IMG/VR virus record: IMGVR_UViG_3300032156_000010
Coordinates: 1 to 58,183 of that record
Direction: 5' to 3' (one strand)
Source: a virus
DNA length: 58,183 bases
Below are positions 13,962 to 54,940 of this stretch, one piece after another. The notes below the pieces were generated by a model. The model was not told the DNA's origin and did no database searches. It saw only the letters and a list, made by a program, of their open reading frames with translations. Position numbers and translations under genes: made by a program. Positions within the stretch are counted from its first letter, which is position 1. Each line of letters begins with the position of its first letter.

Positions 13962-14149
13962 AAGCCGGTGGTCGGAAGGCCTCGCTCCGGATGGCCGCTG
14001 AGCAGTGTGACCGATGCGGGGGAGCGATGTTCATCATGGCTGCCTGCTGCGGGCTCGAGAAGCGTGGCTGGCAGACGGCGAGGAAGTGTTTGAGGTGTGG
14101 TCACAAAGAGGGCCACGATCGAATCCCTGACAAGGGGGGAGTAAAATGA
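13958..14149 (+). CDS. Small zinc-ribbon protein
   Basis: A 63-residue protein with CDRCGG and CLRCGHKEGH about 28 residues apart, a classic two-knuckle zinc ribbon, plus an extra CC pair between them. The start overlaps the minor head stop (ATGA); a later ATG at 13991 just before the ribbon is also possible. Role unknown; the same kind of small ribbon occurs after rsr and at 50907. Confidence 0.7.
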   Translation: MKAGGRKASLRMAAEQCDRCGGAMFIMAACCGLEKRGWQTARKCLRCGHKEGHDRIPDKGGVK

Positions 14150-16551
14150 GAATTGAAAACATCACGACAGCCGGACTCCGGGCGCTCTCGACCGAGGAGC
14201 TTTGGAGTTTGAGATCTCGCTGCATTAACGTCCACGTCCAGGCTTGCGGCGACGGCAAGGGGGAGGGCTTGGAGGTCATTGCCGGCATAGAAAAGGCCCG
14301 CTTCATGTCGGCCTATGCGGGCGTTGTTTATGAGCTTCAGCGCCGGGGGCTGCCGCCGAAAACAAAAACGACGCTCGACGACCAGATCGCCGTTCACCTG
14401 CTCCGCCGGGCGGTCTGGAAGATCGACATGGCGACCCTACCGGAGATCCTCGTCTCGCCTGGTCACGTGGCGATCGGAGGCGCTTTTGTCTCCGATCCGA
14501 AGGACGCTCAAGATATCGAAGTTTTTGTCAAGCACCCGAAACCGGAAAACAGAACGGCCCTTGAAATAACAATCGAACGCGTGATCCGCGCCGAGGTGCC
14601 CGACAAAGCCACTCGTTTCGTTTATGATCCGGCCGGCCCGCCGGAGGGTTCCGTGGTGCCGCTCTACGACCTGATATTGCAGCCGAGGGCCGAGGCAAGG
14701 GTGGAAAAGGTTGAGAAACAGGTTGAGCAGCCCACCGGGACCCGCCAGACCAATGCCGTAAGGGGCGATGGGGAGGGGGAGGCGGGGGAGGAGTCCCGCC
14801 TGGCCTGTAAGGTTTTCGACTTCCGATCGTTGGACGACGGGCGACGCGCATACCGCTGCTCATTCACCGGCCTCGAGGATCCCGTGGAGGCGGAGCCTAC
14901 CGCCCTCGAGATCCCCATCGGTTCGCTGATCGAGGTGAAGGCCGCGGCGCTGGGACTGGATAAGGCGGGGCGCTCGACGCTGGCCGGGATCTCCGTCGTG
15001 GGCATCGCCGCTGCCGATCGTGTTCCCTCTGATCTGGCCGCGCTGGCGAAAGCGGAGGCAGAGGATCTCAAAGAAGGCGATTCCGGTGCGGGCATCCTGC
15101 AGCTCCACCTCTTGGGATTGTCGGAAGAGGAGGCGGAGGCCGTGCGCGGGGCTGGGGACCGCCTGGTCGTGGCCCGGCTGAAAACCGATCGCCTCGAGGC
15201 ATTGCTCGGCGAACTCATCAAGAAACCCGGCGCCGTCCAGCTTGACTGCCAATTGGCGAAAGGGGCATCCGGATCTCAGTTTGAGTTTTTTGTCGGCGAT
15301 ACGCTCAGCCTGGAAAAATTAGATTCCTTCCTGGCGGGCAAGCGTAAACTGCGAGCCGTATGGAAAGCCGGGGGCGGCGCGATGGACGTCGGCGCCCGGG
15401 GCCCGGTCCTGTTTGAGCCGGGGATAACCGCGATGGCTAACCCCGGATGGGGGGCTGTGCTCCGGCTTGACGCCTTCGACTGGACTGCCTACCAAGCGGG
15501 GCCCCACGTGAAGAAACTCCACGTGAGCGGCAGCCGGATGATGGATGGTAACTGGACGCTCGAGGCTAAGCCCGCCGGCGCCGGCAGAGTGTGGCTGGGC
15601 AGCCGGTTGACCGACGATGATCACGAGAAGGTTGAGAAGAGGCTTTCGCCGGTCGATCAGGCGGACCTGGAGCGGGAGGATGAGGCCATCGCCGAGAACA
15701 AAAAGAAACCCGAGGCTTCCAAGCCCCATCAGTTCAAAGCGGCCGACTGGACGGCCGGGAACGGTCATCCCCGATGCTTGACTTGTGGCGACGAGGAGTC
15801 GACCGGGAAGGTCTGCAATATGCCGGACTCTTGGTATGCCAAACACGACTGGGACGACGAGGCCGCCTGGCTCGAGGAGCGAAAAAAGCTGCGGGCCGAG
15901 GGCGTCATCAAGGCATTCCACGTTGAGAAGCCCTATCCTAACGAACACGCCTGCCGGCTGATCGACCCGGGCCAAGTCACGGTAGTCGGTTCCGGGGAGC
16001 GAGATCACGAGGGGAAAAAGTACCGTGTTCTCTATGCCCGAAGGGACGGGAAAACGGTTGTGCAGGCCCATCGCTATCCGAAGGATGCTTGGACGGCGGA
16101 CGCGGCCCGGGCACACTGCAAAGGATACGGCGGGACGTTCGAGCCGGCTGCGGGCGAGACTAAGGCCGATTCTCGCCCGGAAATTAAATTCAAAATCCTC
16201 AAGGCGGATCGAAAAAGGCAATTTGTGGGAGGCATTGTTTATGAGCCAGACGTGGCCGACTCCCAGGGGGACTGGACGTCATCGCCGGAGATCGAGGACA
16301 TGAAATTCCGATTCATGGAACGCTACGCCATCGATCCTCGCCGGTTCAAAATCATGCACGACGGCCGGCTCCGCACCTATCCCGTCATTGAGAGTTTTCA
16401 GCCCGAGCAAGACACTAAAAAAGGCAGCGATGTGATCAAGGCTGGGGCCTGGTGGATCGGGATCAAGGTGACTGATGACGATGTGTGGAAGGCGATTGAG
16501 GACGGCACCTTGACGGGCTTCTCTTTTGGTGGGACAGCGAGGAAGGGTTGA
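14146..16551 (+). CDS. Large head-maturation protein with XkdF-type C-terminal domain
   Basis: An unusually long 801-residue protein with several parts. Residues about 85-190 (ILVSPGHVAIGGAFVSDPKD, DIEVFV) resemble a nucleotidyltransferase-like or odd ligase-like fold. A linker rich in charged residues follows, then a cysteine-containing segment (RCLTCGDEESTGKVC), a small EHACRLIDP...YPKDAWTADAARAHCKGYGG domain seen in phage proheads, and finally an XkdF-like putative serine-protease domain (KRQFVGGIVYEPDVADSQGD to LTGFSFGGTA). The C-terminal part is the probable capsid maturation protease. The fusion is longer than a typical XkdF protein. Confidence 0.7.
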   Translation: MRIENITTAGLRALSTEELWSLRSRCINVHVQACGDGKGEGLEVIAGIEKARFMSAYAGVVYELQRRGLPPKTKTTLDDQIAVHLLRRAVWKIDMATLPEILVSPGHVAIGGAFVSDPKDAQDIEVFVKHPKPENRTALEITIERVIRAEVPDKATRFVYDPAGPPEGSVVPLYDLILQPRAEARVEKVEKQVEQPTGTRQTNAVRGDGEGEAGEESRLACKVFDFRSLDDGRRAYRCSFTGLEDPVEAEPTALEIPIGSLIEVKAAALGLDKAGRSTLAGISVVGIAAADRVPSDLAALAKAEAEDLKEGDSGAGILQLHLLGLSEEEAEAVRGAGDRLVVARLKTDRLEALLGELIKKPGAVQLDCQLAKGASGSQFEFFVGDTLSLEKLDSFLAGKRKLRAVWKAGGGAMDVGARGPVLFEPGITAMANPGWGAVLRLDAFDWTAYQAGPHVKKLHVSGSRMMDGNWTLEAKPAGAGRVWLGSRLTDDDHEKVEKRLSPVDQADLEREDEAIAENKKKPEASKPHQFKAADWTAGNGHPRCLTCGDEESTGKVCNMPDSWYAKHDWDDEAAWLEERKKLRAEGVIKAFHVEKPYPNEHACRLIDPGQVTVVGSGERDHEGKKYRVLYARRDGKTVVQAHRYPKDAWTADAARAHCKGYGGTFEPAAGETKADSRPEIKFKILKADRKRQFVGGIVYEPDVADSQGDWTSSPEIEDMKFRFMERYAIDPRRFKIMHDGRLRTYPVIESFQPEQDTKKGSDVIKAGAWWIGIKVTDDDVWKAIEDGTLTGFSFGGTARKG

Positions 16552-16553
16552 CC

Positions 16554-16695
16554 GTGAAAAGCGTTGAACGAGTAGGTAAAAGAGGCGGCCGTTATCGTCA
16601 AAAGCGGTTACCGCTTTTCTTAAAGCGGTTACCGACTCTCTGTCTCTGTATAAGTATCTGTATCTGTATCTGTATATTTTAGCTTTAAATTAAAG
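16554..16695 (+). repeat. Relic of the replication-initiator coding segment with AAAGCGGT(T/A)ACCGC repeats
   Basis: This gap between head genes contains AAAGCGGTTACCGCTTTT and a second AAAGCGGTTACCG, followed by a TATCTG microsatellite. In one frame it reads KAVTAFLKAVTDSLSLYKYL. The same arrangement occurs inside the initiator gene at 49090-49165 (KAVTAATSLYKYKSQYLSL). Both the near-palindrome and its order before the CTCTGTATAAGTAT run are shared, so this looks like a moved or leftover fragment of that gene rather than chance. Confidence 0.5.
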
Positions 16696-16711
16696 CCGGA
16701 TCGATGTTTTT

Positions 16712-17020
16712 ATGAAGCGCGAAGGCGAGTGCCGAAGGTGTGGCCGTTGCTGCCAGGACGGCTATGATTTTATCTATTCCATCAGCCGCGACTCCCGAGG
16801 GAAACTCGATTATAAAACATTGAAATTTAAACAGGCCGAGCTCGCCGATTCTTCGGCGCGAAAGTCCTGCATGAAATTGACGTTCGATCCCGAAACGGGC
16901 CGCGCGATCTGTCTCGCCGAGGATGCGAAGCCGGAAATTTGCCGGCGTTATCCAACGACAGCGGGGGAGCGGGTGTTCTCGGATTGCGGATTTCGATTTA
17001 TCGAAACGGGGGGGGCTTGA
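16712..17020 (+). CDS. YkgJ-family Fe-S/zinc cluster protein
   Basis: A 102-residue protein with the YkgJ-type cysteine pattern: CRRCGRCC near the N-terminus, CM and CLAEDAKPEICRRYP in the C-terminal half, and a final C. The family is thought to bind an iron-sulfur cluster or zinc; its biochemical role is unsettled. It stands alone between the head protease and the capsid promoter. The -35 box of that promoter overlaps its stop codon. Confidence 0.8.
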   Translation: MKREGECRRCGRCCQDGYDFIYSISRDSRGKLDYKTLKFKQAELADSSARKSCMKLTFDPETGRAICLAEDAKPEICRRYPTTAGERVFSDCGFRFIETGGA

Positions 17021-17045
17021 CAAACGAAACGAATGCGCCTATATA
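17017..17045 (+). promoter_or_regulatory. Strong sigma-70-like promoter for scaffold and capsid genes
   Basis: TTGACA at 17017-17022, exactly 17 bases, then TATATA at 17040-17045. This is a perfect -35 box and a near-perfect -10. Transcription would start near 17052 and run through a 220-nt leader into the scaffold-like and major capsid genes, the proteins needed in greatest amount. Confidence 0.8.
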
Positions 17046-17051
17046 GACGAT

Positions 17052-17274
17052 GAATGACGGGGCCCCGAGCCCCGGCCACTGAGAAGTCGCCTCCAAGACT
17101 TCGCATCGCGACCGTAGGGCCGCACTCGGTGCCGTGCAATGCGGCGACCGGAGAGCGGCGCCGAGGTCGGCGGACGTCGAAGGGCGCCCAGGCGACGGCG
17201 CTCACGGAAGACGGCCGCTCGACCCCGATGTAAGAACGCGAGAAAAACGCGGACGGCGCGGGCAGGAGACGACG
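17052..17274 (+). ncRNA. GC-rich structured leader of the capsid transcript
   Basis: About 220 nt without a convincing gene between the promoter and the scaffold start. Several hairpins are visible: GGGGC(CCCGA)GCCCC near 17058, GAAGTC/GACTTC around 17085-17105, GCCGCA/TGCGGC around 17117-17145, and GCGCC/GGCGC further on. The base content is much more GC-rich than coding sequence around it. It could stabilise the capsid mRNA, regulate translation, or be processed into a small RNA. I do not recognise a known family. Confidence 0.5.
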
Positions 17275-18045
17275 ATGTTCACGGCATTAACCGGCGGCAA
17301 AGGTCGCCGGAAAATCAAAGACATCGACGCCGAGGAAATCTCGATCGTCGACCTCCCCGCTACCCGCAAAAAATTTTTTCTTCTCAAAAGGAGAACTCAA
17401 CTCATGGAGGAATTACTCGCACTACTCAAGTCCTTCTTGGGGGAGCTGCCCGAGGAGCTGGCGAAGGCTGCCAAAGGGATTCCCGAAGAGGTGATGAAGG
17501 CGTTGAAGGCGGCCCTCGGGACAATCGAAAAATACAAAGGCGAATTGCCCGACGATCTGATGGGCGCGTTGAAAACGCTGGCGAAATACGCCTCCGGCGG
17601 TTTCCCCGGCAAGAAACCCGGCGAGGGTGACGGCTCGGGAGACGGCGAGGGTGACGGCAAGGAACCGAAGAAAAAGGCCGGACGCCGGCTTTCCAAAGCC
17701 ACGGCCGAGGAGCTGTTCAAGGCGCTCGCCATTTTGAAGAGCCTGGTCGAAGAGGATAAGGACGAGGAGCTGAAGAAGAAGGTGGCCGACGGCGATCTGC
17801 CCGAGGACGTGCAGCTCCGGCTCGAGAAACTGGATGAGATCGAGGCCGCGGAAAAAGAGAAGCTGGAAAAGGCCTCCAAGGATCGCGTCGACAACCTCGA
17901 GAAAGACATCAAGGACCTCAAGGCCAAGCTCGAGGCCGCCGTGAAGAAACGGGGCGACTCCCAGCAAGCCAAGGGCACCGACGAGGGCAACGACAAGCCT
18001 GAAGTCGACAACTGGACCACGCTCAAGATCGGCTCCGACGATTAG
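17275..18045 (+). CDS. Scaffolding-like coiled-coil protein
   Basis: A 256-residue, highly charged protein just before the major capsid gene. The N-terminus (KIKDIDAEEISIVDLPATRKKFF) resembles the start of phage capsid-assembly or maturation proteins; the middle is helical with a Gly/Asp/Lys-rich linker, and residues about 190-235 form a coiled coil (EKASKDRVDNLEKDIKDLK). Size, charge and position match a scaffold that templates the procapsid and is later lost. Start 17275 follows AGGAG. Confidence 0.7.
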   Translation: MFTALTGGKGRRKIKDIDAEEISIVDLPATRKKFFLLKRRTQLMEELLALLKSFLGELPEELAKAAKGIPEEVMKALKAALGTIEKYKGELPDDLMGALKTLAKYASGGFPGKKPGEGDGSGDGEGDGKEPKKKAGRRLSKATAEELFKALAILKSLVEEDKDEELKKKVADGDLPEDVQLRLEKLDEIEAAEKEKLEKASKDRVDNLEKDIKDLKAKLEAAVKKRGDSQQAKGTDEGNDKPEVDNWTTLKIGSDD

Positions 18046-18080: not shown

Positions 18081-19187
18081 ATGATTAAATCCATCATGGA
18101 AAAACTGAGGGTTCGCAAGGCATACGACCTGGTCTCGCTGCCCAACATCCAATTCAGCCCCGAGGAGGCGGATCGGTTCATCACCTACATTGTCGAGGCC
18201 GGCGTTCTCAAAAATTTCGCCAGGATCGAACGGATGAATCGTCCGCAGAAGGACATCCCGGCCATCGGTTTCGGCACGGGCCGATTCCTGTATCCGGCCG
18301 GGCAGTTCAACGAGAGCAAATACAAAAAGGAATTTGCCTCGACCAAAATCCGGCTCGAAACTCAACACCTGCGGGGCGCCTTTCCGATTTTCGACAGCGA
18401 CCTGGAGGACCTGCCCGAGAACATGAGCGAAGCGGCCTACAAAGACGCCCTCATCAAACTCATCGCCCAAAAGATCGATCAGGAGATCGAGGCGGCTTTT
18501 TGGATCGGCGATACGGTGGGCCTCAACGGTTTTGCCGCCGACGACATCCGCAGCCTCTTTGACGGCTGGCGCTACCGGATCGTCAACTCGCAGATTGCCG
18601 GCCAGGCCTATTACAACCTGGTGGCCGGCGGCTCCCACGTGATCAACGCCTGCGAGGGCGGCCTTTCGGGATCCGATTTCGCGATTGCCGGAAAAATCGC
18701 CGAGCGGTTGGGCACGCCTCCCTACGACTGGGAGTTCAAGTACCACCAAATGCTCAAGGAAATGCCCGCCCGCTACAAAGCCGGGCTCGCGGATTTCCGT
18801 TTCTTGAACTCCGACCTGGTGACGCAGGACTATATCGGGGCCCTCGCCTCGCGCGGCACCACGCTGGGTGATGCCGTCATCACCGGCACCATCAAACCCG
18901 CTTTTGGGGCGGTACAGATCGTCGACGTGCCGCTCATGCCGACCGACCTGGGCGACCCGACCGCCACCCCCGACACGGATGGCGTTTTGGGCGCGGGCAA
19001 CTACACCGACGTTCTGCTGACGCTGAAAGACAATCTCATCGTCGGTTTTCAGCGGGATATTCGCATTGAGAGCCAGCGCGAGGCGGCCGACGAGGCGACC
19101 TACTTCTTCTACTCCATCCGGGTCGCGCTCGCCATCGAGAATCCTAACGCCATCGTCCTGCTCCGGTGCCTGGAGCACGCCTGCTAG
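18081..19187 (+). CDS. Major capsid protein (HK97-fold)
   Basis: A 368-residue protein in the normal capsid position, with an E-loop-like region (IPAIGFGTGRFLYPAG), a spine-helix candidate (EAAYKDALIKLIAQKIDQEIEAAF cut in two halves around residue 125-150) and a late FQRDIRIESQREAADEATYFFY segment typical of HK97-fold coat proteins. Preceded by GAAGGAG. It assembles into the icosahedral shell around the scaffold. Confidence 0.88.
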   Translation: MIKSIMEKLRVRKAYDLVSLPNIQFSPEEADRFITYIVEAGVLKNFARIERMNRPQKDIPAIGFGTGRFLYPAGQFNESKYKKEFASTKIRLETQHLRGAFPIFDSDLEDLPENMSEAAYKDALIKLIAQKIDQEIEAAFWIGDTVGLNGFAADDIRSLFDGWRYRIVNSQIAGQAYYNLVAGGSHVINACEGGLSGSDFAIAGKIAERLGTPPYDWEFKYHQMLKEMPARYKAGLADFRFLNSDLVTQDYIGALASRGTTLGDAVITGTIKPAFGAVQIVDVPLMPTDLGDPTATPDTDGVLGAGNYTDVLLTLKDNLIVGFQRDIRIESQREAADEATYFFYSIRVALAIENPNAIVLLRCLEHAC

Positions 19188-20484: not shown

Positions 20485-21108
20485 ATGGGTTATAACGGAA
20501 ACTATATCTCCGACACCGACATCACCTGGCCTTCCGGCATATCGGCCGCCGAGAAGCAGGAGATCATCGAGACGGCCGAAGCCGTCCTCGAACACGCCCT
20601 GGCCTGGCGCCCCCGCTTCAGTCATTTCGATATTCGGATGGACGGCAACAGCAAAAACCGGATCATCCTCCCCCTGCGAGAGCGGATCATTGAGGTCTCC
20701 GACGTCTACGTCAACGCTCAAAAACTCGAACCGACCTGGTGGACCCACGATCTGTGCTCCGTCTATCTTGACGCTTGGAGCTCCAACGCCGCTCTTCCCT
20801 CCGATCCCGAGCTCGACCGCCTGTTGAGCGAGAGGGACGGCGGGATCTTCGTCCGCGGTTACAATAACATTCGCATTGTCGGCACCTGCGGAGTGAGTGC
20901 CGTGCCGGCCTGGGCCCGCCGGGCCGTCCGCATGATTGTCGACGCGATGAACGATCCCACGGCCTATACCATCTACCACACGGGCGGCGAGACGATCGGA
21001 CGCTATTCCTACAACAGCCCGGCCGGGGCCTGTAAGACGGGCATTCGGGAAGTTGACGAGCTGCTGAAGCTCTTTGTCCGGAAGAAACCGATCCTCATGG
21101 CCCCATGA
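20485..21108 (+). CDS. Head-tail connector (gp6-like) protein
   Basis: A 207-residue protein with the outline of phage head-completion adaptors: a helical N-terminal region (EKQEIIETAEAVLEHALAWR), a central beta part, then VPAWARRAVRMIVDAMNDP and VDELLKLFVRKKPIL at the C-terminus, resembling gp6/gp15-type connectors. A small AGCCC-GTC-GGGGCT hairpin (20457-20471) lies just before its ribosome site. It overlaps the first gene of the glycan cassette. Confidence 0.65.
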   Translation: MGYNGNYISDTDITWPSGISAAEKQEIIETAEAVLEHALAWRPRFSHFDIRMDGNSKNRIILPLRERIIEVSDVYVNAQKLEPTWWTHDLCSVYLDAWSSNAALPSDPELDRLLSERDGGIFVRGYNNIRIVGTCGVSAVPAWARRAVRMIVDAMNDPTAYTIYHTGGETIGRYSYNSPAGACKTGIREVDELLKLFVRKKPILMAP

Positions 21109-21863
21109 CGATTGCCAAGCGGGCCTTCCCCTTCCAGACTAAACGACGGGAGCTCCGTGATCCTGACCAGGATCCTAATTTTGGAACGCCCGACTGGGGC
21201 AATCGTCACGTCGCCGAGGTATTGCCACAGGGCTGTTGGACCGGCCATCCGTGCGTCATCGTGGGAGGCGGGCCGAGCTTCGAGGCGTTCGACGCCTTTC
21301 GGCTCAAGGGCTGGCGCACGATCGGTGTCAACCGAGCCTTCATTCGTTTCGAACCGACGATCGTTTTTTCCATGGACACTCGCTATTTGAATTGGCTTTT
21401 GGCCGGACAATACGGCGTCTCCGAAAAACTCCATTTTTTGACCCTTCGTTCCTACCGCGTATGGCACCTCGTGAGGCCGGCCACCTTGCCGGGCGAATAC
21501 TATTACGCGCAGGGCTATCGCGGGGCCATCAATGCGCTTGATTCCGTGAGTCTGCGCCTCGAGGAGGGGCTGGGGACGGGAGCTAATTCCGGCTACGGGG
21601 CGTTGAACCTGGCGGTGTTGTTGGGGGCCGCCCCGATTTATTTACTGGGCTTCGACTGTAGCCATACACCGAACGGCCGCACTCACTGGCACGCGGGTCA
21701 TCCGGTGTCTCAAACTCAACGCCATCTTAACGCCTTCATTTCGCATTTCACGGCCGCCGCCCGGGAGTTCAAACGCCTGGCCCGCGGTCCGATCATCAAT
21801 CTAAGCCGCGGAACCGCCCTGCGGTGCTTCGATCTGGGCGACCCCGAGGAGGTATTCCAGTGA
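21105..21863 (+). CDS. DUF115 / MptE-like family protein
   Basis: A 252-residue protein with VIVGGGPSFE near the N-terminus and GANSGYGALNLAVLLGAAPIYLLGFDC in the C-terminal half, signatures of the DUF115 family, which includes motility-accessory (flagellin glycosylation) factors, sialyltransferase-like proteins and MptE. It opens a ten-gene glycan cassette embedded in the structural block; a transferase acting on a sugar of the virion is the natural reading. The stop overlaps the next start. Confidence 0.7.
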   Translation: MTIAKRAFPFQTKRRELRDPDQDPNFGTPDWGNRHVAEVLPQGCWTGHPCVIVGGGPSFEAFDAFRLKGWRTIGVNRAFIRFEPTIVFSMDTRYLNWLLAGQYGVSEKLHFLTLRSYRVWHLVRPATLPGEYYYAQGYRGAINALDSVSLRLEEGLGTGANSGYGALNLAVLLGAAPIYLLGFDCSHTPNGRTHWHAGHPVSQTQRHLNAFISHFTAAAREFKRLARGPIINLSRGTALRCFDLGDPEEVFQ

Positions 21864-22213
21864 TCTCAGGCAAAGTGTGGGGCACGACAATGCCTATTTT
21901 TCAGACACCTTTCGTCAAATCCTTCGGGCTAAAAATCAAGGCCGGGGGCTTCTCCTCCGAACACCGTCATCGCTACCGCTCCAACTATTTTTTTATCGCC
22001 ACGGGGCGACTGCGGGTGTTGACCTGGATGGAGAAGGGAAAGGCGCCGGACGTGATCGAGCTCAGACCATTCGAATCGACCTGCGTCCCGCCTGGCCTGT
22101 GGCATAAATTCGAAGCCCTCGAGGCATCGATCGTCGTGGAGTCCTACGTCGGGATGGAAGCGGACAACGGCGACATCGAACGCCGCACTCGCGGCGGGCT
22201 TGGAAAAGGATGA
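21860..22213 (+). CDS. Cupin-fold protein (WxcM/sugar-isomerase-like)
   Basis: A 117-residue protein starting at GTG 21860, overlapping the previous stop (GTGA). It has the cupin spacing: HRHRYRSNYFFIATGRLRV, then a later PPGLWHKFEALEASIVVES, with metal-type His residues in both parts. Small cupins of this sort act as sugar epimerases, isomerases or sensors in glycan clusters. The exact reaction is unknown. Confidence 0.7.
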   Translation: MISGKVWGTTMPIFQTPFVKSFGLKIKAGGFSSEHRHRYRSNYFFIATGRLRVLTWMEKGKAPDVIELRPFESTCVPPGLWHKFEALEASIVVESYVGMEADNGDIERRTRGGLGKG

Positions 22214-22337
22214 TGGGCGAGGTGAGGGGCGGGAGGAGCATGGGCCGAGTTCCGACGTTTTGGACGCGACGGGAAAGCCCTCCCTCACGGCTTGTGCGCC
22301 CGCCTCTCACCACGCCTTTCCACCGTGGAGCCCGGCC

Positions 22338-23246
22338 ATGAAGGTGGCGCTCTATAGCCGGACACCGCTGGCGGCCGCCCCGCTTGAGATCTGGAAGGCA
22401 CTCGAGCGATATGGCGTCGGCATCGAAACTTCGCTCATCAACAGGACGCTCGGCTATAGAGACGGCCGACGATTCCCCGGGCATCTCCTGGCCTCTAACG
22501 CCGATGCCGCAAGGGCATTAAAAGGGGCTGACCTGTGGCACGTTCACAATTATTGGGATCGGGAACCGCTTGACGCGCTTCTCGCTCGATACGGGCGCCC
22601 CGTGGTGGCCCAATTCCATTCCGTCCCAAGGCTGGGCAACTGGGCCGAACTCCAATCGAAGGCAAAAATCAGTTACACAATTCGACAGCCTTTACAGGCC
22701 AGGGAGTACGCGCCCTTTATGACAATGCCCAACCTTGTCGATGCTGACGAGCGCCGGCCCGCCCGTCGATCGATGGAGGGCCCCGTGCGAATTGCCTTCG
22801 CTCCCTCGACCCAAGCCCCGGTCGGACATCCGGCGTCGAAAGGCCGGGCGGAGGTGTTGGCGATCTTGAAGACCGTTGCCGCCGAGCGGGCCGTGGAGGT
22901 GGTGCTGATCGAGGGCGTTCCCTACGAGGAAAACCTGAAACTCAAGCGATCGGCTCACATCCTGGTGGACGACGTGGTGACGGGCAACTGGCATCGCACC
23001 TCCCTCGAGGGCGCCTGCTTCGCCTGTGCCGTCCTCAATGCCGCCCGACAACAGGGCGCCGCCTGGCCGTGGGTCCATGCGACGCTCGCCTCGCTCCGCG
23101 CCAAGCTTCTGCAGCTTATCGACGATCGTCCGCTATTGATCAGGGTGCAGGAAATGACCCGCGCCTGGATTCTCGGTTCCGAGTTTCATGCCCTCGAGGG
23201 CGTCAAGGAATATGTCAAAGCCTATCAGGAGGTGCTAAGTGCGTGA
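22338..23246 (+). CDS. GT-B (family 4-like) glycosyltransferase
   Basis: A 302-residue protein with a Rossmann-like start (MKVALYSRTPLAAAPLEIWK), LWHVHNYWD, then RIAFAPSTQAP and a C-terminal nucleotide-sugar region (ILVDDVVTGNWHRTSLEGAC). The pattern fits a short GT4-like transferase. The region 22214-22337 before it has no gene of its own. It overlaps the next gene by eight bases. Confidence 0.72.
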   Translation: MKVALYSRTPLAAAPLEIWKALERYGVGIETSLINRTLGYRDGRRFPGHLLASNADAARALKGADLWHVHNYWDREPLDALLARYGRPVVAQFHSVPRLGNWAELQSKAKISYTIRQPLQAREYAPFMTMPNLVDADERRPARRSMEGPVRIAFAPSTQAPVGHPASKGRAEVLAILKTVAAERAVEVVLIEGVPYEENLKLKRSAHILVDDVVTGNWHRTSLEGACFACAVLNAARQQGAAWPWVHATLASLRAKLLQLIDDRPLLIRVQEMTRAWILGSEFHALEGVKEYVKAYQEVLSA

Positions 23247-23919
23247 GATCACCGTCATCATCGCTACGCGCGGGCGACTCGAAAAGTTGCGCCGGACATT
23301 GGTCTCCATCCCGCTCCAAGCAAACGGCGCGGCCGTACATGTCGCCGTCGCCTGCGACGCGGACGAAGCGACGTTCCATGAGCTCGGGAAGCAGGGACTC
23401 CGCCGCGCTGGCGAAGTCGATGAACTTGTATTAATCCCGGAGCAGCGGGGGGCCGTCTATTGCCGGAACCGCCTGGCGGAGAACGTGAGGGACGCGGTGT
23501 TGTGGGCTACCGATGACATTGTCTTCAAACCTCGATCGATCGAAGCCGCCGCCGAAAGCCTCTCCCGCCGCTTCACCGAGGAGGACGGGGTTGTGGGTTT
23601 CAATCAGGTGAATCACAAGCATTTCAACCCGACGGGCGTTGGGATTATGGGCCAGGCGTTTCTTCTTCGTTATCCCGAGAAGCACCTATTTTTTCCCGGC
23701 TACTTTCATTTCGCTTGTCAGGAGATTCACTGGTTAGCCACGAGGTTGGGAAAATTTCATTTTGAGCCGATGGCGCGGCTTGTCCACCACCATCCGTCGG
23801 AACGGGAATTTCGAGAGGAGATGGATCAGACGCACGCTGATGCCCGAATTTTCAAGAGCCGCGACATGGCACTCCTCGCCCAGCGTACCGAAGCGGGCGA
23901 GGCATGGGGGGCGGAATGA
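23239..23919 (+). CDS. GT-A (family 2-like) glycosyltransferase
   Basis: A 226-residue protein starting at GTG 23239. ITVIIATRGRLEKL opens a GT2-type nucleotide-binding fold; LWATDDIVF holds the Asp pair equivalent to the DxD metal site, and an EIHW segment follows. C-terminal His-rich stretch LVHHHPSE. A small, single-domain enzyme; the sugar is unknown. Confidence 0.75.
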   Translation: MREITVIIATRGRLEKLRRTLVSIPLQANGAAVHVAVACDADEATFHELGKQGLRRAGEVDELVLIPEQRGAVYCRNRLAENVRDAVLWATDDIVFKPRSIEAAAESLSRRFTEEDGVVGFNQVNHKHFNPTGVGIMGQAFLLRYPEKHLFFPGYFHFACQEIHWLATRLGKFHFEPMARLVHHHPSEREFREEMDQTHADARIFKSRDMALLAQRTEAGEAWGAE

Positions 23920-23952
23920 ACCTGGCCGGGGCGGAGAGGGCCGAGATCAGGG

Positions 23953-24807
23953 GTGGAAATGCCCTGCGATATGCACCAGGTGCATCCTGCTGGGTCAATA
24001 CGGGTGGGCCTTATAAGGACGCCGGAAAGGGCGATCGAGGCTGACGTGGGCAAATTCCCGCCCCGTGTCCGGTTCGTCGTTGAGACGTTCCTGGCCTACG
24101 ACCGGCCCACTCAAACGCCCTCTCCCGAATGGGTTCAATTCCGGCTTCGTTGGTTTGTCGATCACACGCTCCGCTCCCTCCGGGCTCAGACCTGGCGGGA
24201 GTTTGAGATCTTCGTACAGACCGGAGAACGATATCGGGATCTCGTCAACGCTTTCGCCTGGCCGGACGATGTGAGGGTGTGCCGGCAGCGCGGCCGGGAG
24301 GCATATCAGGAGGGGCTGGGGCGTTACGATTTTCTCTCCATGACCCGTATTGATAGCGACGACCTTTTCCGGCAAGATGCCATGGATGAGGTGCGGGCGG
24401 CGGTCCTGTCTCGGCTGCCCGTCAAGGAACGCACGGTATTGGTCTTTCCGGCCCGATCGGTTTGGGATGCGATGAATGGGCTGATCATCGGCCCCCATAC
24501 CCGGCCCTCGAGTCCGTTCTTCACCCATATTTTTCCCTACTCTATGGTAGCCGACTGGCCCGCGTTCCAGGCGGCTCACTTCTGTGGGCACGGTTCGGGC
24601 GGAGCCGGCGACCGTGGAGCGATGCACCTATCGCGAGATAAAGTGATGGTCGTCAAGCATGGATGGAATTGGTCGAATCTTAAACGCGGCAAAAGCTGGC
24701 CGAAGAAGGCGGCCGATCTCGAAAAGCTCCAGGCCCAATTTCCCGGCGTTGAGGTGACGTGTGACCCGGCCAGGATCGCGGCGATCCTTTCGGAGTATGG
24801 ACAATGA
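23953..24807 (+). CDS. Putative glycosyltransferase
   Basis: A 284-residue protein with SLRAQTWREFEIFVQTG and LSMTRIDSDDLF, a DSDD metal site as in GT-A enzymes, plus a basic C-terminal segment (NWSNLKRGKSWPKKA). I give the GTG at 23953; the first ~30 residues are weakly convincing and a later start is possible. Part of the embedded glycan cassette; overlaps the next gene by four bases. Confidence 0.6.
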   Translation: MEMPCDMHQVHPAGSIRVGLIRTPERAIEADVGKFPPRVRFVVETFLAYDRPTQTPSPEWVQFRLRWFVDHTLRSLRAQTWREFEIFVQTGERYRDLVNAFAWPDDVRVCRQRGREAYQEGLGRYDFLSMTRIDSDDLFRQDAMDEVRAAVLSRLPVKERTVLVFPARSVWDAMNGLIIGPHTRPSSPFFTHIFPYSMVADWPAFQAAHFCGHGSGGAGDRGAMHLSRDKVMVVKHGWNWSNLKRGKSWPKKAADLEKLQAQFPGVEVTCDPARIAAILSEYGQ

Positions 24808-25487
24808 TTAGTGAGAAGACATTTTCGGTTCTGATCACCACTCGTGCGCCCGAACGGCGGACGACAATCGGGGAGGTGGTCGGGGCCTGGGCCGCGCAGA
24901 CGGCCGATCAAGTATGGCTTCTCAATTGCGGCGCCCCGCTGCCGGCCATGAAGGGGGCCAGGGTTTTTAACCTCCCCGTCGATCCCGGCACTCGCACCGA
25001 CTATTCGATGGCCTTATTGACGACGGGGGATTTCGTGGTACTAGCCGACGACGACGTGGTCGTGGGCCATGGCTTCCTCGAGGCCTTATTTCAAGGTTGG
25101 CAGGAGGCCGGAGCGAGGGGCCTGGTGGGAATCATAGGCCGAACGTTCCAGGGTTCTACCTATTGGGGGGAGACCACTTTTTTCCGCGCCTCGCTTCTCG
25201 ATCGACCCGTGAGAGTGGGTTTTGTCGGCGTGGTGATCCTGGCGCCGCGCGAGCTGATGGCTTTTGACGCTCGGGGATGCCCGAGAAATTGCGATGACCT
25301 GTGGCTGGCGATGAAGACGTGGCCGGACGAGCCGAAACACGTGGTGCCCGTCCATCCCTACCGCAATCTGGCGGAAGCGAAGGGCAAGTCGGCCATGTAC
25401 CGTGATCCCGCGCTCCGTGAGCAACGGCAGCAATTCTACGGCGATCACTATCTCAAAACCTATGCGCCAGCGGGAAGGAAATTCTAG
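24804..25487 (+). CDS. GT-A (family 2-like) glycosyltransferase
   Basis: A 227-residue protein with FSVLITTRAPERR at the start and FVVLADDDVVVGHGFLEAL, a textbook DDD metal-binding motif. GCPRNCDDLWLAMK later in the chain provides the usual second acidic site. Third of three GT-A enzymes here, which suggests that a chain of several sugars is built. Confidence 0.78.
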   Translation: MISEKTFSVLITTRAPERRTTIGEVVGAWAAQTADQVWLLNCGAPLPAMKGARVFNLPVDPGTRTDYSMALLTTGDFVVLADDDVVVGHGFLEALFQGWQEAGARGLVGIIGRTFQGSTYWGETTFFRASLLDRPVRVGFVGVVILAPRELMAFDARGCPRNCDDLWLAMKTWPDEPKHVVPVHPYRNLAEAKGKSAMYRDPALREQRQQFYGDHYLKTYAPAGRKF

Positions 25488-25488
25488 C

Positions 25489-26031
25489 ATGGTGGATCTG
25501 AAGGTGGCCGCGGTGATCGTTGAAACGATCGTCGGGATTATGGCCGAGGCTGAGATCCCGGTTTTTTTGACGCTTGGCACGGCCCTCGGTGCCTGGCGGC
25601 ATGGCGATTTCCTGCCTCACGATCTCGACATCGACCTAGGATTCCTGGCCGAGGACGGGAAGGCGGCCCGCCTCATCCTCGCCGCCGGAGCATTCATGAG
25701 GGCGGGATTTGTGACGAAAGCGTTGACGACGGGCATGGGTTTCAAGCTCTCCCGCTCCCCGTTCCATGCCGATCTGCCTCCCTATGTATTGGAGGGGAAA
25801 GCGCGAGTAGTCTACTCGAATAATAAAACGAAAAATAAAAGGCATTACAAGTTGGTCTATCCGGCAACGCTATTCGAGCACATGGAGACGGTTAGGCTAG
25901 GAGGTCACCGCTATCTCGCGCCGATGCCCATTGAGACCTACCTACGTCGACAATACGGGCCGACCTATGCCGTGCCGGATCCGGAGTGGAAAGCGCAGTG
26001 GAGCCCGGCGCGGGTATATCTAAAGCCATGA
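25489..26031 (+). CDS. LicD-family phosphotransferase-like protein
   Basis: A 180-residue protein with the LicD core LTLGTALGAWRHGDFLPHDL and DIDLGF: the D-x-D acidic pair after a G-T-x-L-G-A-x-R lead. LicD proteins move phosphocholine or similar phospho-groups from CDP-linked donors onto glycans. The next gene is a cytidylyltransferase that could make such a donor. One base separates it from the preceding stop and it overlaps the next start. Confidence 0.82.
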   Translation: MVDLKVAAVIVETIVGIMAEAEIPVFLTLGTALGAWRHGDFLPHDLDIDLGFLAEDGKAARLILAAGAFMRAGFVTKALTTGMGFKLSRSPFHADLPPYVLEGKARVVYSNNKTKNKRHYKLVYPATLFEHMETVRLGGHRYLAPMPIETYLRRQYGPTYAVPDPEWKAQWSPARVYLKP

Positions 26032-26486
26032 ACACGGACAAGTTGAAGGACCTGGCTCATCCCCGCGTTCTGGTGGTCGGGTGTTTTGATTTATTCCATC
26101 GCGGCCACCTGGCACTCCTCGAGCGGGCTCGCCGTTGCGGCGTCTCGCTCATTGTGGGCGTGGTGACGGATGAATTTCGCGCCAAGACGAAAGGCGCGGA
26201 ACCCATCATTCCGTTTTCCGATCGGGCGATAATCCTGGCCGGCCTCCGGTGTGTCGACGCGGTAGTCGAGGTGCGAGAGCCTGACTTCCGCCCTCTGATC
26301 AAGGAATATGGGATCGATGTTTTCGTTCACTCGCCCGAACACCGCGAGATCCGCTTTCTCGAGGCAACCGACGTTATCCGCCGCCGCGGAGGTCACGTGG
26401 TGTTGTTATCGAGGACGCCCGATATTTCATCGACGATGATCAGACGGAGGATCGTCGAGACATGGAACGAAGGGAGGGTGGAATGA
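26028..26486 (+). CDS. Cytidylyltransferase-like (TagD type) nucleotidyltransferase
   Basis: A 152-residue protein with GCFDLFHRGHLALLERA, the HxGH nucleotidyltransferase signature, and ISSTMIRRRI near the end, equivalent to the ISTT..K/R motif. The family activates glycerol-phosphate, choline-phosphate or ethanolamine-phosphate with CTP. Together with the LicD gene next door it forms a donor-and-transferase pair. Overlaps both neighbours by four bases. Confidence 0.85.
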   Translation: MNTDKLKDLAHPRVLVVGCFDLFHRGHLALLERARRCGVSLIVGVVTDEFRAKTKGAEPIIPFSDRAIILAGLRCVDAVVEVREPDFRPLIKEYGIDVFVHSPEHREIRFLEATDVIRRRGGHVVLLSRTPDISSTMIRRRIVETWNEGRVE

Positions 26487-27061
26487 AAATGACCGCTGAC
26501 GATTACATCCGAAAACATTGGGAGCCGCGCCGGGTCTGGACGCACCTTGAGTGGCCGAAACACCGCAACCGTTTCGCCCGCATCGCGACCATGCTCAACG
26601 GGCCTAGTAAGTCGGGCCTCTACGTGGACGTCGGCTGCTGCTTCGGCCATTCAACATACCACCTGGCTCGCCTTCAAACGGGGACGTGGCATGGTGTCGA
26701 CTTTTCTCTCCGGGCCGTGGACATGGCGAAGACCTTTTTCCCGAAACTCAATTTTATCTTTTGCTCCGGTTTCGACGACTTGGCTCTCCTCGGGCCCTAC
26801 GATGGTGTCGTGTGCTCGGAAGTTATCGAGCACGTTGAGGACGATGCAGGATTAGCCCAGGCGCTGGCTATCATAACGCGCGGGAAGCTCGTCGTCACGA
26901 CGCCGGCGGTGCGGGTGAACGATCCGGGTCACCTCCGCGTTTATAACGAGGCATCGTTAGCCGCCCTTTTCAAAGACCTGGGGCTCCAAGTCTTGACCTC
27001 GATCCATGGGCCGTTTATTTATCTCCAAGGCTGGATGCCGCCAGCCGAGGCGGGAGAATGA
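26483..27061 (+). CDS. SAM-dependent methyltransferase
   Basis: A 192-residue class I methyltransferase: YVDVGCCFGHSTYHLA is the SAM-binding motif I, GVDFSLRAVDMAK follows, and YDGVVCSEVIEHVEDD is the motif seen in small-molecule and sugar methyltransferases. Likely methylates a sugar of the glycan built by the neighbouring genes. Confidence 0.82.
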   Translation: MKMTADDYIRKHWEPRRVWTHLEWPKHRNRFARIATMLNGPSKSGLYVDVGCCFGHSTYHLARLQTGTWHGVDFSLRAVDMAKTFFPKLNFIFCSGFDDLALLGPYDGVVCSEVIEHVEDDAGLAQALAIITRGKLVVTTPAVRVNDPGHLRVYNEASLAALFKDLGLQVLTSIHGPFIYLQGWMPPAEAGE

Positions 27062-27825
27062 TGAAGCAAGCGAGGGTTCTCGATTTCATTATGGAGATCG
27101 ATGAACGAGACGGATTGGGCCGGAAGCTCTTGAAAAATGGAATTTATGAACTCCGTGAAGCCCGTACCTGGCGGGCGATTTTGCGGCCAGGGGCGACGGC
27201 ATTTGACATCGGCGCTCACTGGGGCTATTATTCCATCCAAGCGTCCAAGATCGTCGGCGAGGGGGGCTGTGTTGTCGCCGTGGAGCCTGAGCCGATGAAT
27301 TATGGGATGCTTTGCCGGAACCTCGACCTCAACCGCTGCTCGAACGTCAAGGCAATGGAGGCGGCGGTCGATGGCCCCGATCTGTCCGATTATCCTCCCG
27401 GAGCCTTCCTCCCCAACGCTAAAAATTCCGGCGCCGGCCGCCTCCTCCCCGGCCCGGCCGTTTATCCCCTTCTCCAAACGATTGCCGTCAACCGGTTGTC
27501 GCTTCTTTCTCTTCTTCGCCTTTATCCCAAGGCCAACATCGTAAAATGCGACACACAAGGCGCGGAGGCACACATCTTTTGCGCCGACGCCCTCGAGGAG
27601 CTCCGGCGGCGCGAGGCAAAAATCATTTTTGAGTACTGGCCTCGAGGACTCAACCTTCGCGGTTCCAACGGCAAGGGGCTACTGGCAAATTTTATAAACG
27701 CCGGTTTCGCCCTCTTTCGCTTCGATAAATCCGGCCTCGAGCTCCTCGGCGGGAGGGATCCCCTGGCCGGCGCCCGGGCGGGGCATACAAACCTCTTCGC
27801 CCGCCCCCGGGAGGTCGCGCCGTGA
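27058..27825 (+). CDS. FkbM-family methyltransferase
   Basis: A 255-residue protein with AFDIGAHWGYYSIQASKIVG, VAVEPEPMNYGMLCRNLDLN and VKCDTQGAE, the three hallmarks of FkbM methyltransferases, which O-methylate sugars and other small hydroxyl groups. Two methyltransferases in a row suggest a multiply capped glycan. The stop overlaps the start of the neck gene, so the cassette is transcribed with virion genes. Confidence 0.85.
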   Translation: MMKQARVLDFIMEIDERDGLGRKLLKNGIYELREARTWRAILRPGATAFDIGAHWGYYSIQASKIVGEGGCVVAVEPEPMNYGMLCRNLDLNRCSNVKAMEAAVDGPDLSDYPPGAFLPNAKNSGAGRLLPGPAVYPLLQTIAVNRLSLLSLLRLYPKANIVKCDTQGAEAHIFCADALEELRRREAKIIFEYWPRGLNLRGSNGKGLLANFINAGFALFRFDKSGLELLGGRDPLAGARAGHTNLFARPREVAP

Positions 27826-28124
27826 GCTACCTCTCCCTCCTCCCCAACACCGTCCAGCTCGTCTTGATGGCGCCCGACACCATGAATCGTGTCACCCGGA
27901 GCGTGGTCGCTACGGAGAAAGCCAGGATCGAGTACACGGACAAGCTGTTCCGTATGCCGCAAGGCGAATACATCAGGTCCGTGGCCTGCGTTTTCTTGAC
28001 CGCTAAAAGCGTTGTCCGTCAGGAGCACCTGATCTGCTTCGGCGGGCGAGACTATTCGATCATCGAGCTCCGCCGCGAGCAGGGCGCCACGAAGCTCCAC
28101 CATATCGAGGCTTGGGTCCGATGA
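27822..28124 (+). CDS. Putative head-closure / neck protein
   Basis: A 100-residue, mainly beta protein starting at GTG 27822 by overlapping the FkbM stop. Size, beta content and location between head genes and the tail terminator fit a head-closure protein of the SPP1 gp16 / HK97 type. No diagnostic motif is seen. Confidence 0.5.
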   Translation: MSYLSLLPNTVQLVLMAPDTMNRVTRSVVATEKARIEYTDKLFRMPQGEYIRSVACVFLTAKSVVRQEHLICFGGRDYSIIELRREQGATKLHHIEAWVR

Positions 28125-28561
28125 AACCTCCGGCTATATCCGCCATTTCGACCAAAAATCTTTCGTTGATTTTTGACGATGTGGATTTTTCCAACGGGTA
28201 CGCTCGTTTCATGGGGACGACCGCGCCGGAGACCGCCAAGCGGGCGATATTCCGTACCTGGGCGTTCATCCTTCGCGACGCCATCGTGGAGGAACCGAGA
28301 GCGCCGCACAAGCGCGGTTTCCTCTGGAATTCGCAGACCATCATGACGCCCTATATGATCGGCGACGAGATCGTTTCCATCGGCGGTTTCAGCATCGTCT
28401 ACGCCGGCTATCTTCACGATAAAGGCAAGCCGTCCTGGAATTGGACGCTGGCCGGATCCGGCCCCAGATATCTCTCAACAAAGTTGGCGCGGAACGCCGA
28501 AAAATATCTTCAGATCGCCGCCCGCGAGATGGCCCGCGAGTGGCCGAAGGGAAAGGGGTAG
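28121..28561 (+). CDS. Putative neck / tail-completion protein (gp10-like)
   Basis: A 146-residue protein that includes KRAIFRTWAFILRDAIVEE and a C-terminal AEKYLQIAAREMARE helix. The order helix, basic loop, helix is seen in HK97 gp10-like tail completion proteins. Overlaps the preceding gene by four bases. Confidence 0.55.
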   Translation: MKPPAISAISTKNLSLIFDDVDFSNGYARFMGTTAPETAKRAIFRTWAFILRDAIVEEPRAPHKRGFLWNSQTIMTPYMIGDEIVSIGGFSIVYAGYLHDKGKPSWNWTLAGSGPRYLSTKLARNAEKYLQIAAREMAREWPKGKG

Positions 28562-52968: not shown

Positions 52969-53210
52969 ACAGGATGACAACTAGAACCCGGCTGATGGAA
53001 ACGGTCGCCTTGCTGGCGCTTACGGCGACATTCACCAAAAAATACAGCTTCGGGCAGCTAGGAATGGGCTTACAGCGGGATTACGATCCTCGAGGCCAAT
53101 TGAGCCCTGGCCCGGGAAATCCGCGAGTTGTGCGGGCGCCTGGTCCGACGGAATCGCGGCCGCTCGTGAAACCGATTCTAAAAATCCCCGGGCGGAGAAA
53201 AAATAGATGA
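52965..53210 (+). CDS. Small basic hypothetical protein
   Basis: An 81-residue protein, Pro/Arg-rich in the second half and with a short hydrophobic start (METVALLALTATFTKKYSFG) too weak for a secretion signal. ATG 52965 overlaps the previous stop; 52974 is an alternative start. Likely disordered. Confidence 0.5.
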   Translation: MNRMTTRTRLMETVALLALTATFTKKYSFGQLGMGLQRDYDPRGQLSPGPGNPRVVRAPGPTESRPLVKPILKIPGRRKNR

Positions 53211-53239
53211 GATCAAAAATCAAAAGGAGGAAAAATCAA

Positions 53240-54940
53240 ATGGGCAAAGAAAGTTCTGTCGAAGTCGGAGCGGGAATCCTTTCGGACATCCCGCTGGATC
53301 AGATCGCAACGAATCCCTTGAATCCCCGGTTGAATATCACCGGGGGCGAGGCATTCGCAGACCTGGTGAAGTCTGTAAAGATCAAGGGCGTGATCGTCCC
53401 AATCATTGTGAGGCTGTTAAAGAGCGTGACGTATCCCTATCAGCTCGTGGTCGGGGAACGGCGTTTCCATGCGGCTCGGGCAGCCGGGCGTGCCACCGTC
53501 CCTGCTTTCATCCGAGAGTTGACGGATGGCGAAGCCTATGAAATCATGCTCATCGAAAACCTGCAACGGCAGGATCTCACGGAGCGCGAGGAGGCCAATA
53601 CCTTCAAAGCCTTCGAGGGGGCCCACGGTAGCATCCAGACCCTCTCTGAAAAGACGGGTGTCAGCCCGCGCTATATCCGGGCTCGGATCGCGGTACTGGC
53701 GCTGCCGGACTTCCTCCTGGTGGCCTGGGAGAAGGGCGTGCTCAAATACGACCATCTGGAACAATTCCTAAAGCTACAAGGCCAGACGGAGCGGATGAAA
53801 CTCCTATTCCGCCGGGTCAAGGATCAAAGTCTTTCTGCCGTCCAGATGAAAAAAGATATTGGAGAGGAGCGGATCCCCCTGAGTATGGCCCTCTTCGATG
53901 TCAAAAAATCGTGTGCCGAATGTCGTTCAAACTCCGCCGTGCAGAAAGACCTGTTCGGGCTCGGAGATTCAAAGAAAATCGCCTGCTTCGATCCAAAATG
54001 TTTTAAGGCCCAACAGGGGCGGTGGCTCACCGCCCACTGGTCTGAAACAGCGGAAGGGAAAAAGTACGGGACGAAAGGCGTCCGGTTTGACGATGAGATT
54101 CGTTGGAATGAAAAAGAGGCCTTCAAGAGCAGTGGACCCGTTCCCAAAAAATGCCTCGAGTGTATGCAATTCGCTTCTCTCGTCTGGTTGAACGGCAAGA
54201 TCAGGCATGAATATGGTGACGCCCGCGTCTGCATTGGAAACAAACCGTGTTTCAAGGCCGTTCAAAAAGAGATGATAGCTTCGACCCGAGGGAAGAAAAA
54301 GGGAGTAATCGCCGGCGCCATCGGCAGTGGACCGCGGGTCGCCTGGCATGGCGAGTATTTCCGCAACGCGTTTTATAAAAAAAGAGTGCCGGAAGTGCTG
54401 GCCGGGATGAAGGCCGAAGACCCGAAGCTCAAGACCCTGCTCGTCGCCTGCCTAATCCACACCAACGGCTATGCGCTCGATGCCGCGGCGAAGGCGCTCC
54501 AAACAAAAAATTACACATCAAAGGCCGACCTGATGAAAAAATTGTTTGCCCAGCCCTACGAGAAGGCCGTGGCCCCGCTTTTCGCGAAGATCGTGGAGGC
54601 CATGTTTGACGAGGGTCAGAACGTGGGGGAGCGGAACGGTCTCGGGTCCAGCTGCCGGCGCGAGATCGGCAATTTCCTTGGTATCAACCTGGCGAAGGAA
54701 TGGGCCCCCACAGAGGAATACTTCCAGAAAAAAACGACCAAGGAGATATTGGCCTTCGGGAAGAAATCCGGTCTGTTTGCTGAGCCCAAGGTGAAAGAAT
54801 ACCTGGCGAAGACGATGAAGAAGAAGCCGGATTCGTTTGACAGGCTGAAGAAGTCAGAGCTCATCACTCTTCTCCTCAAATCCGGCGTGACCCTTGTTGG
54901 TCGAGTCCCCGACGAAATTATTAAAGCCCAAGAGGTGTGA
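53240..54940 (+). CDS. ParB/RepB/Spo0J-family protein, extended
   Basis: A 566-residue protein. The N-terminal ~210 residues are a full ParB core: IPLDQIATNPLNPRLNITGG, YQLVVGERRFHAARAAGRAT (CTP-binding ERR motif), AYEIMLIENLQRQDLTEREE, and a helix-turn-helix (LSEKTGVSPRYIRARIAV). A cysteine-rich middle (CAECRSN, CFDPKCF, CLECMQF) and a long C-terminal domain follow, like ParB-type phage proteins that also act as partition or nuclease factors. No ParA is found. Start 53240 follows AAGGAGG. Confidence 0.85.
   Translation: MGKESSVEVGAGILSDIPLDQIATNPLNPRLNITGGEAFADLVKSVKIKGVIVPIIVRLLKSVTYPYQLVVGERRFHAARAAGRATVPAFIRELTDGEAYEIMLIENLQRQDLTEREEANTFKAFEGAHGSIQTLSEKTGVSPRYIRARIAVLALPDFLLVAWEKGVLKYDHLEQFLKLQGQTERMKLLFRRVKDQSLSAVQMKKDIGEERIPLSMALFDVKKSCAECRSNSAVQKDLFGLGDSKKIACFDPKCFKAQQGRWLTAHWSETAEGKKYGTKGVRFDDEIRWNEKEAFKSSGPVPKKCLECMQFASLVWLNGKIRHEYGDARVCIGNKPCFKAVQKEMIASTRGKKKGVIAGAIGSGPRVAWHGEYFRNAFYKKRVPEVLAGMKAEDPKLKTLLVACLIHTNGYALDAAAKALQTKNYTSKADLMKKLFAQPYEKAVAPLFAKIVEAMFDEGQNVGERNGLGSSCRREIGNFLGINLAKEWAPTEEYFQKKTTKEILAFGKKSGLFAEPKVKEYLAKTMKKKPDSFDRLKKSELITLLLKSGVTLVGRVPDEIIKAQEV

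Follow-up and report, generated by a model that had tools for sequence, protein, structure and literature searches.

A pair of overlapping genes in the virus record IMGVR_UViG_3300032156_000010 probably constitutes a two-enzyme phage module that adds phosphodiester-linked groups to a glycan, most likely one on a virion protein, a reading to which we assign a probability of about 0.6. The genes encode a LicD-family transferase and an HxGH cytidylyltransferase-like enzyme, and computation supports their family assignments, the fold and catalytic residues of LicD, the recurrence of the pairing, and the conservation of the genomic slot.

The window, which is the whole 58,183 bp of this IMG/VR record, has a 127-bp direct repeat at both termini and is therefore probably a complete circular tailed-phage assembly. 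The recognised virion genes are on the (+) strand, between approximately 14,000 and 33,000, and are ordered as a protease (14146-18045), a major capsid-type (MCP) virion structural protein (18081-19187; phrog_1623, 154 bits), a head-tail adaptor (20485-21108; phrog_442), a glycan cassette, a tail completion or Neck1-type protein (28112-28561; phrog_5), and a tape measure gene starting at 30198. The adaptor and the neck-type protein, both of which are kept in related phages, form the upstream and downstream borders of the cassette, and the LicD pair thus lies inside a virion-gene block as the first-pass annotation had placed it. Elsewhere, the region 155-1850 contains a TROVE/Ro60 gene with a vWA domain (127.8 bits) directly 3' of a tRNA-Ile call. 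The call overlaps a Y RNA-like (YrlA) match that is full-length (171-274) but under the gathering score (36.7 bits). The phage possibly carries Ro60 and its Y RNA, in which case the 'tRNA' would be the tRNA-mimic portion of the latter. A ParB-like protein (53207-54940), in which the N-terminal and HTH domains are both recognised, suggests plasmid-like maintenance or regulation.

The first gene of the pair (25489-26031, +) begins with an ATG at 25489, has its stop codon ending at 26031, and encodes a 180-residue protein containing GTALGAWRHGDFLPHDLDIDLGF. It matches the Pfam LicD family PF04991 with 39.7 bits, above the cut-off of 22.6, but the match is confined to residues 20-56 in the N-terminal core. 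A phmmer search of the PDB extends the similarity, with a match to FKRP spanning residues 12-165 (E 5e-9). An AlphaFold2 model, for which 25 sequences were aligned, reaches a pLDDT of 88.8, and FKRP chains rank first when it is searched with Foldseek. VIA-align superimposes 160 residues on FKRP with a Z score of 18.6 and an rmsd of 2.5, and gives antibiotic nucleotidyltransferases as the next-best family with a Z score of 11.9; an identity with this latter group (LnuA, ANT(2'')) was considered and rejected because FKRP scores far higher. Residues D45, D47, D49 and D95 align with FKRP D360, D362, D364 and D416, each of which is essential in FKRP (PMC6965139), and all four catalytic aspartates are thus present. 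By profile, modelled fold and catalytic residues the gene product is a LicD-family transferase, for which a phospho-substituent transfer activity is predicted, and the earlier LicD call is borne out. Two relatives in other contigs (L075, 6378-6956, and L084, 6363-6902), each adjoining a cytidylyltransferase gene, have lost catalytic aspartates.

The second gene (26028-26486, +) overlaps the LicD gene by 4 bp, the LicD stop and its own start sharing ATGA, as had been proposed. Its best start is the ATG at 26028, where the program's list of open reading frames gives a GTG at 25986, and its stop codon ends at 26486. The 152-residue product is certainly a member of PF01467 by sequence (77.1 bits), with the HxGH motif in the form HRGH and a C-terminal RTPDISST. 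Its subfamily is less clear. The NCBIfam model for the HldE nucleotidyltransferase domain (TIGR02199) scores 92.4 bits and that for TagD/GCT (TIGR01518) 64.7 bits, missing their cut-offs of 181.5 and 165.4 respectively, and the best PHROGs score is likewise to HldE. Relatives in the PDB include the ethanolamine-phosphate (the best match), glycerol-3-phosphate and Fom1 cytidylyltransferases. RTPDISST is cytidylyltransferase-like, and its RT pair is missing from the HldE reference sequences. Phylogenetically, the window enzyme is sister to that of a second phage contig, L045 (support 86/88). It lies outside the supported GCT clade; a grouping with GCT was not rejected (p-AU 0.33). With the family scores ambiguous and the tree position poorly supported, we refer to the enzyme as cytidylyltransferase-like and infer CTP as its nucleotide. 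The earlier description of it as TagD-like is correct only in a loose sense: it has the fold family, HxGH and the RTxxISxT motif in common with the TagD/TarD glycerol-3-phosphate cytidylyltransferases, but HldE scores higher, and the enzyme lacks both the MGDDWxGKFDFL stretch of TagD/TarD and the [GK]xDD[WY] that most relatives carry.

Both genes belong to a (+) strand cassette at 21105-27825 in which most neighbouring genes either overlap by 4-8 bp or are separated by only 1-33 bp. It begins with a DUF115/MptE-like (Maf-like) transferase (21105-21863; phrog_4603 sialyltransferase, 88.7 bits) that is kept in relatives, and a conserved WbuC-like cupin (21866-22213; PF07883, 28.4 bits, with the WbuC family below cut-off). 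Four glycosyltransferases follow: a GT4-like enzyme of ambiguous start (22335-23246; PF13439 weak, 48-56% identity in relatives), a GT2-like enzyme present in relatives (23239-23919; PF13641 weak), a rhamnosyltransferase-like enzyme (23953-24807; PF11316 weak), and a second GT2-like enzyme (24804-25487; PF00535 weak). Downstream of the LicD pair are a SAM methyltransferase (26483-27061; PF13489, 43.6 bits) and an FkbM-type methyltransferase (27058-27825; PF05050, 30.8 bits). Profile searches and the gene order of relatives both locate the glycosyltransferases in the virion gene block. No multi-span membrane protein was found among the cassette proteins, and scans for promoters and terminators in the cassette gave no signal beyond shuffles.

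A related capsid protein is encoded in 37 virus contigs, and across this MCP clade the slot between adaptor and neck holds a glycan cassette. Among contigs that are long enough, 20 MCP relatives have the DUF115 gene near or after the adaptor; the slot lacks it in L033 and L034, which are divergent. Cupin and the first two glycosyltransferase genes are present in many of the relatives, and the distal half of the cassette varies. LicD is found in none of the 37 relatives' records, many of which are fragments, so LicD decoration appears to be optional in this lineage. In one contig (L030, 13435-16716) the DUF115 enzyme forms the N-terminal part of a 1093-residue protein. Sulfotransferase-like genes, all of them under the Pfam cut-off, occur in four related cassettes (L007, 16705-17361; L032, 6445-7092; L045, 5992-6579; L072, 3273-3926), and those of L045 and L072 also carry LicD.

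The pairing itself recurs widely. Viral contigs were scanned with a two-sequence cytidylyltransferase alignment as the query, leaving LicD out of it, and 32 contigs were recovered. A local iterative profile places a LicD gene in 19 of these, invariably on the strand of the cytidylyltransferase gene, upstream or downstream of it, and within 5 bp in 15 cases; several contigs are near-duplicates or relatives, so independent pairings number fewer than 19, and the profiles were derived from the loci themselves, with independent Pfam support for LicD in the window, L045 and L058. The LicD-linked enzymes are spread over several tree clades and mostly bear the cytidylyltransferase signature xTxx[IV]S[ST]T, and an HldE-type clade among the sampled loci has no LicD neighbours. 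In one 143-kb virus (L051) LicD is paired with a GCT-clade enzyme, and in L057-L061 LicD and the cytidylyltransferase are encoded as a single protein; the L058 product, from one virus group, is a GT2-LicD-cytidylyltransferase-GT2 fusion with each domain type above its Pfam cut-off. Three phages (L045, L071 and L072) share with the window the glycosyltransferases GT23239, GT23953 and GT24804, LicD, the cytidylyltransferase and the methyltransferase MT26483 at approximately 25-49% identity (43-49% for the methyltransferase) and in shuffled order, and two of the three also have DUF115. Head or tail genes lie near the cassette in L045 and L072, and the flanks of other contigs with the pair include head, tail or lysis genes.

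Similar neighbourhoods occur in bacteria. Among 145 Verrucomicrobiota genomes, with neighbours counted within short flanks, an HxGH gene lies next to LicD at approximately 11 of 28 loci. Several of these enzymes belong to the GCT clade, and the partnership is thus also a cellular one; the partners that could be placed are mostly of the glycerol-phosphate (GCT) type. An Opitutales locus (L098, 1423-6405) has a cytidylyltransferase-PEP mutase fusion together with LicD and, identified by eye, decarboxylase-like and alcohol-dehydrogenase-like genes, and resembles a locus for tailoring glycans with hydroxyethylphosphonate. Adjacency or fusion in many viruses, together with LicD beside true GCTs in bacteria, supports the earlier suggestion that LicD and the HxGH enzyme are a functional pair. 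LicD was not found near the cytidylyltransferase genes of the named phages CRP-6, Atuin, Vibrio 1.031.O and DAC19. The window LicD as a single-sequence query gave no matches in either the viral contigs or annotated phages, and the L072 LicD gave none in annotated phages, indicating that there is no relative in that annotated-phage collection at those thresholds.

In the route that we propose, the 26028-26486 enzyme would convert CTP and X-phosphate to CDP-X, where X-phosphate is a phosphorylated small molecule from the host, most simply sn-glycerol-3-phosphate. LicD (25489-26031) would then move X-phosphate onto a sugar of a glycan, the presumed acceptor, with release of CMP. The glycan would be started by the Maf-like DUF115 enzyme encoded from 21105, built by the cassette glycosyltransferases, further methylated, and most likely attached, late in infection and in the cytoplasm, to a virion protein. 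No member of the APH/choline-kinase, PEP mutase, PfkB or SIS families was found in the phage genome, so the host probably supplies the phosphate compound that provides X. All cells contain glycerol-3-phosphate, and by analogy with the mostly GCT-type LicD partners placed in the sampled cells glycerol-phosphate is our likeliest guess for X; the missing GDDW stretch in the window enzyme leaves room for another.

The alternatives for the donor are less probable in varying degrees. The HxGH enzyme could be an HldE-like adenylyltransferase supplying an ADP-sugar to the glycosyltransferases, with LicD drawing on a host CDP donor instead. Its best NCBIfam and PHROGs scores would fit this, as would one tree in which the window and L045 enzymes join the HldE clade, a grouping that was not rejected and has support of only 58/19. 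We nonetheless consider this unlikely, as it does not fit with the RTPDISST signature, the overlap with LicD and the recurrent pairing, the HldE-type enzymes sampled have no LicD neighbour, and the genome lacks the PfkB kinase and SIS isomerase of the heptose pathway. Phosphocholine or phosphoethanolamine as X is similarly improbable: the LicD-family enzyme Mf1, to which the window LicD has a weak NCBIfam match, transfers both (PMC11982090), and the HxGH enzyme finds its best PDB match in ethanolamine-phosphate cytidylyltransferase, but a choline/ethanolamine-kinase-type (APH) gene is absent and the placed Verrucomicrobiota partners of LicD favour glycerol-phosphate. The specific proposal of phosphocholine in the first-pass annotation is not upheld, as the first-step enzyme is not of the LicC type and neither an APH/choline-kinase nor a PEP-mutase gene is present. 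A phosphonate such as hydroxyethylphosphonate is very improbable; the fused enzyme of L057 and L058 groups with the Fom1 cytidylyltransferase and one Verrucomicrobiota locus joins a cytidylyltransferase-PEP mutase fusion to LicD, but the phage has no PEP mutase and its HxGH enzyme is placed apart from Fom1.

The target of the tailoring can also be read in two ways. The same chemistry might act on a host surface polysaccharide or lipid-linked glycan, for instance as a block against competing phages, with the location among virion genes simply reflecting late expression. Surface polysaccharide loci contain glycosyltransferases and WbuC-type cupins, as the cassette does. The licD gene of some 'Flandersviridae', reported with ispD in the replication module, has been interpreted in terms of host-surface modification, and the pair also in terms of isoprenoid synthesis (PMC8008677). 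We regard this as rather unlikely here, because the cassette encodes neither a flippase nor a polymerase nor any other multi-span membrane protein, leaving it without a route for surface-polysaccharide export, because the adaptor-neck slot is conserved through the clade, and because the model of the core DUF115 enzyme has as its nearest structure the Maf flagellin glycosyltransferase 5mu5, with the CstII sialyltransferase second. The likeness is weak, and is consistent with DUF115 being a protein glycosyltransferase. The Maf-like model and the missing export route make a virion protein the better guess, and we infer the virion as target from gene position and the missing export proteins.

Several known systems resemble parts of this arrangement. 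FKRP, fukutin and bacterial LicD (PF04991) are CDP-dependent and have in common with the window LicD the fold, the catalytic aspartate set and a neighbourhood of glycan genes, but the window protein is phage-borne, a single domain of 180 residues, partnered with an HxGH enzyme and set in a virion-gene block. True TagD/TarD enzymes are found as LicD partners both in Verrucomicrobiota and in the large virus L051. Giant viruses also carry LicD proteins. The 'Flandersviridae' arrangement likewise has LicD beside a phage cytidylyltransferase, although IspD has a different fold and the pair lies in a DNA replication module. Phage-borne LicD was thus already reported (PMC8008677), although, within the literature searched, not with the present partner or in the present place. 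GCT-like genes have been described in Roseobacter phage CRP-6 and cyanophage S-SZBM1, where their function was called unclear (PMC6918029, PMC9146016); these and the window gene are all phage-borne and cytidylyltransferase-like, but that of CRP-6 has no adjacent LicD. Virion glycosylation is established in mycobacteriophages Che8, Corndog and Myrna, where, according to Freeman 2023 as cited in PMC12363180, it affects capsid or tail proteins and, as would be the case here, uses phage-coded glycosyltransferases. A search of mainly open-access literature found no paper joining phage LicD, GCT-like genes and virion glycosylation. To our knowledge, neither phosphate donor synthesis nor a LicD step is known in mycobacteriophage virion glycosylation.

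These data raise the possibility, which we put somewhat below an even chance, of a widespread and unreported class of phage virion glycans bearing teichoic-acid-like phosphodiesters, made by a mobile cytidylyltransferase-LicD module that is sometimes fused to glycosyltransferases and is found beside, or replaced by, sulfotransferase-like genes, with phages thereby adjusting the charge of their coats. The LicD partner provides a testable explanation for LicD-linked phage genes annotated as 'glycerol-3-phosphate cytidylyltransferase', namely that they provide the donor from which a glycan receives its phosphate decoration. Were the virion indeed to be the target, its surface would be chemically of a new kind, and both adsorption and recognition would be affected.
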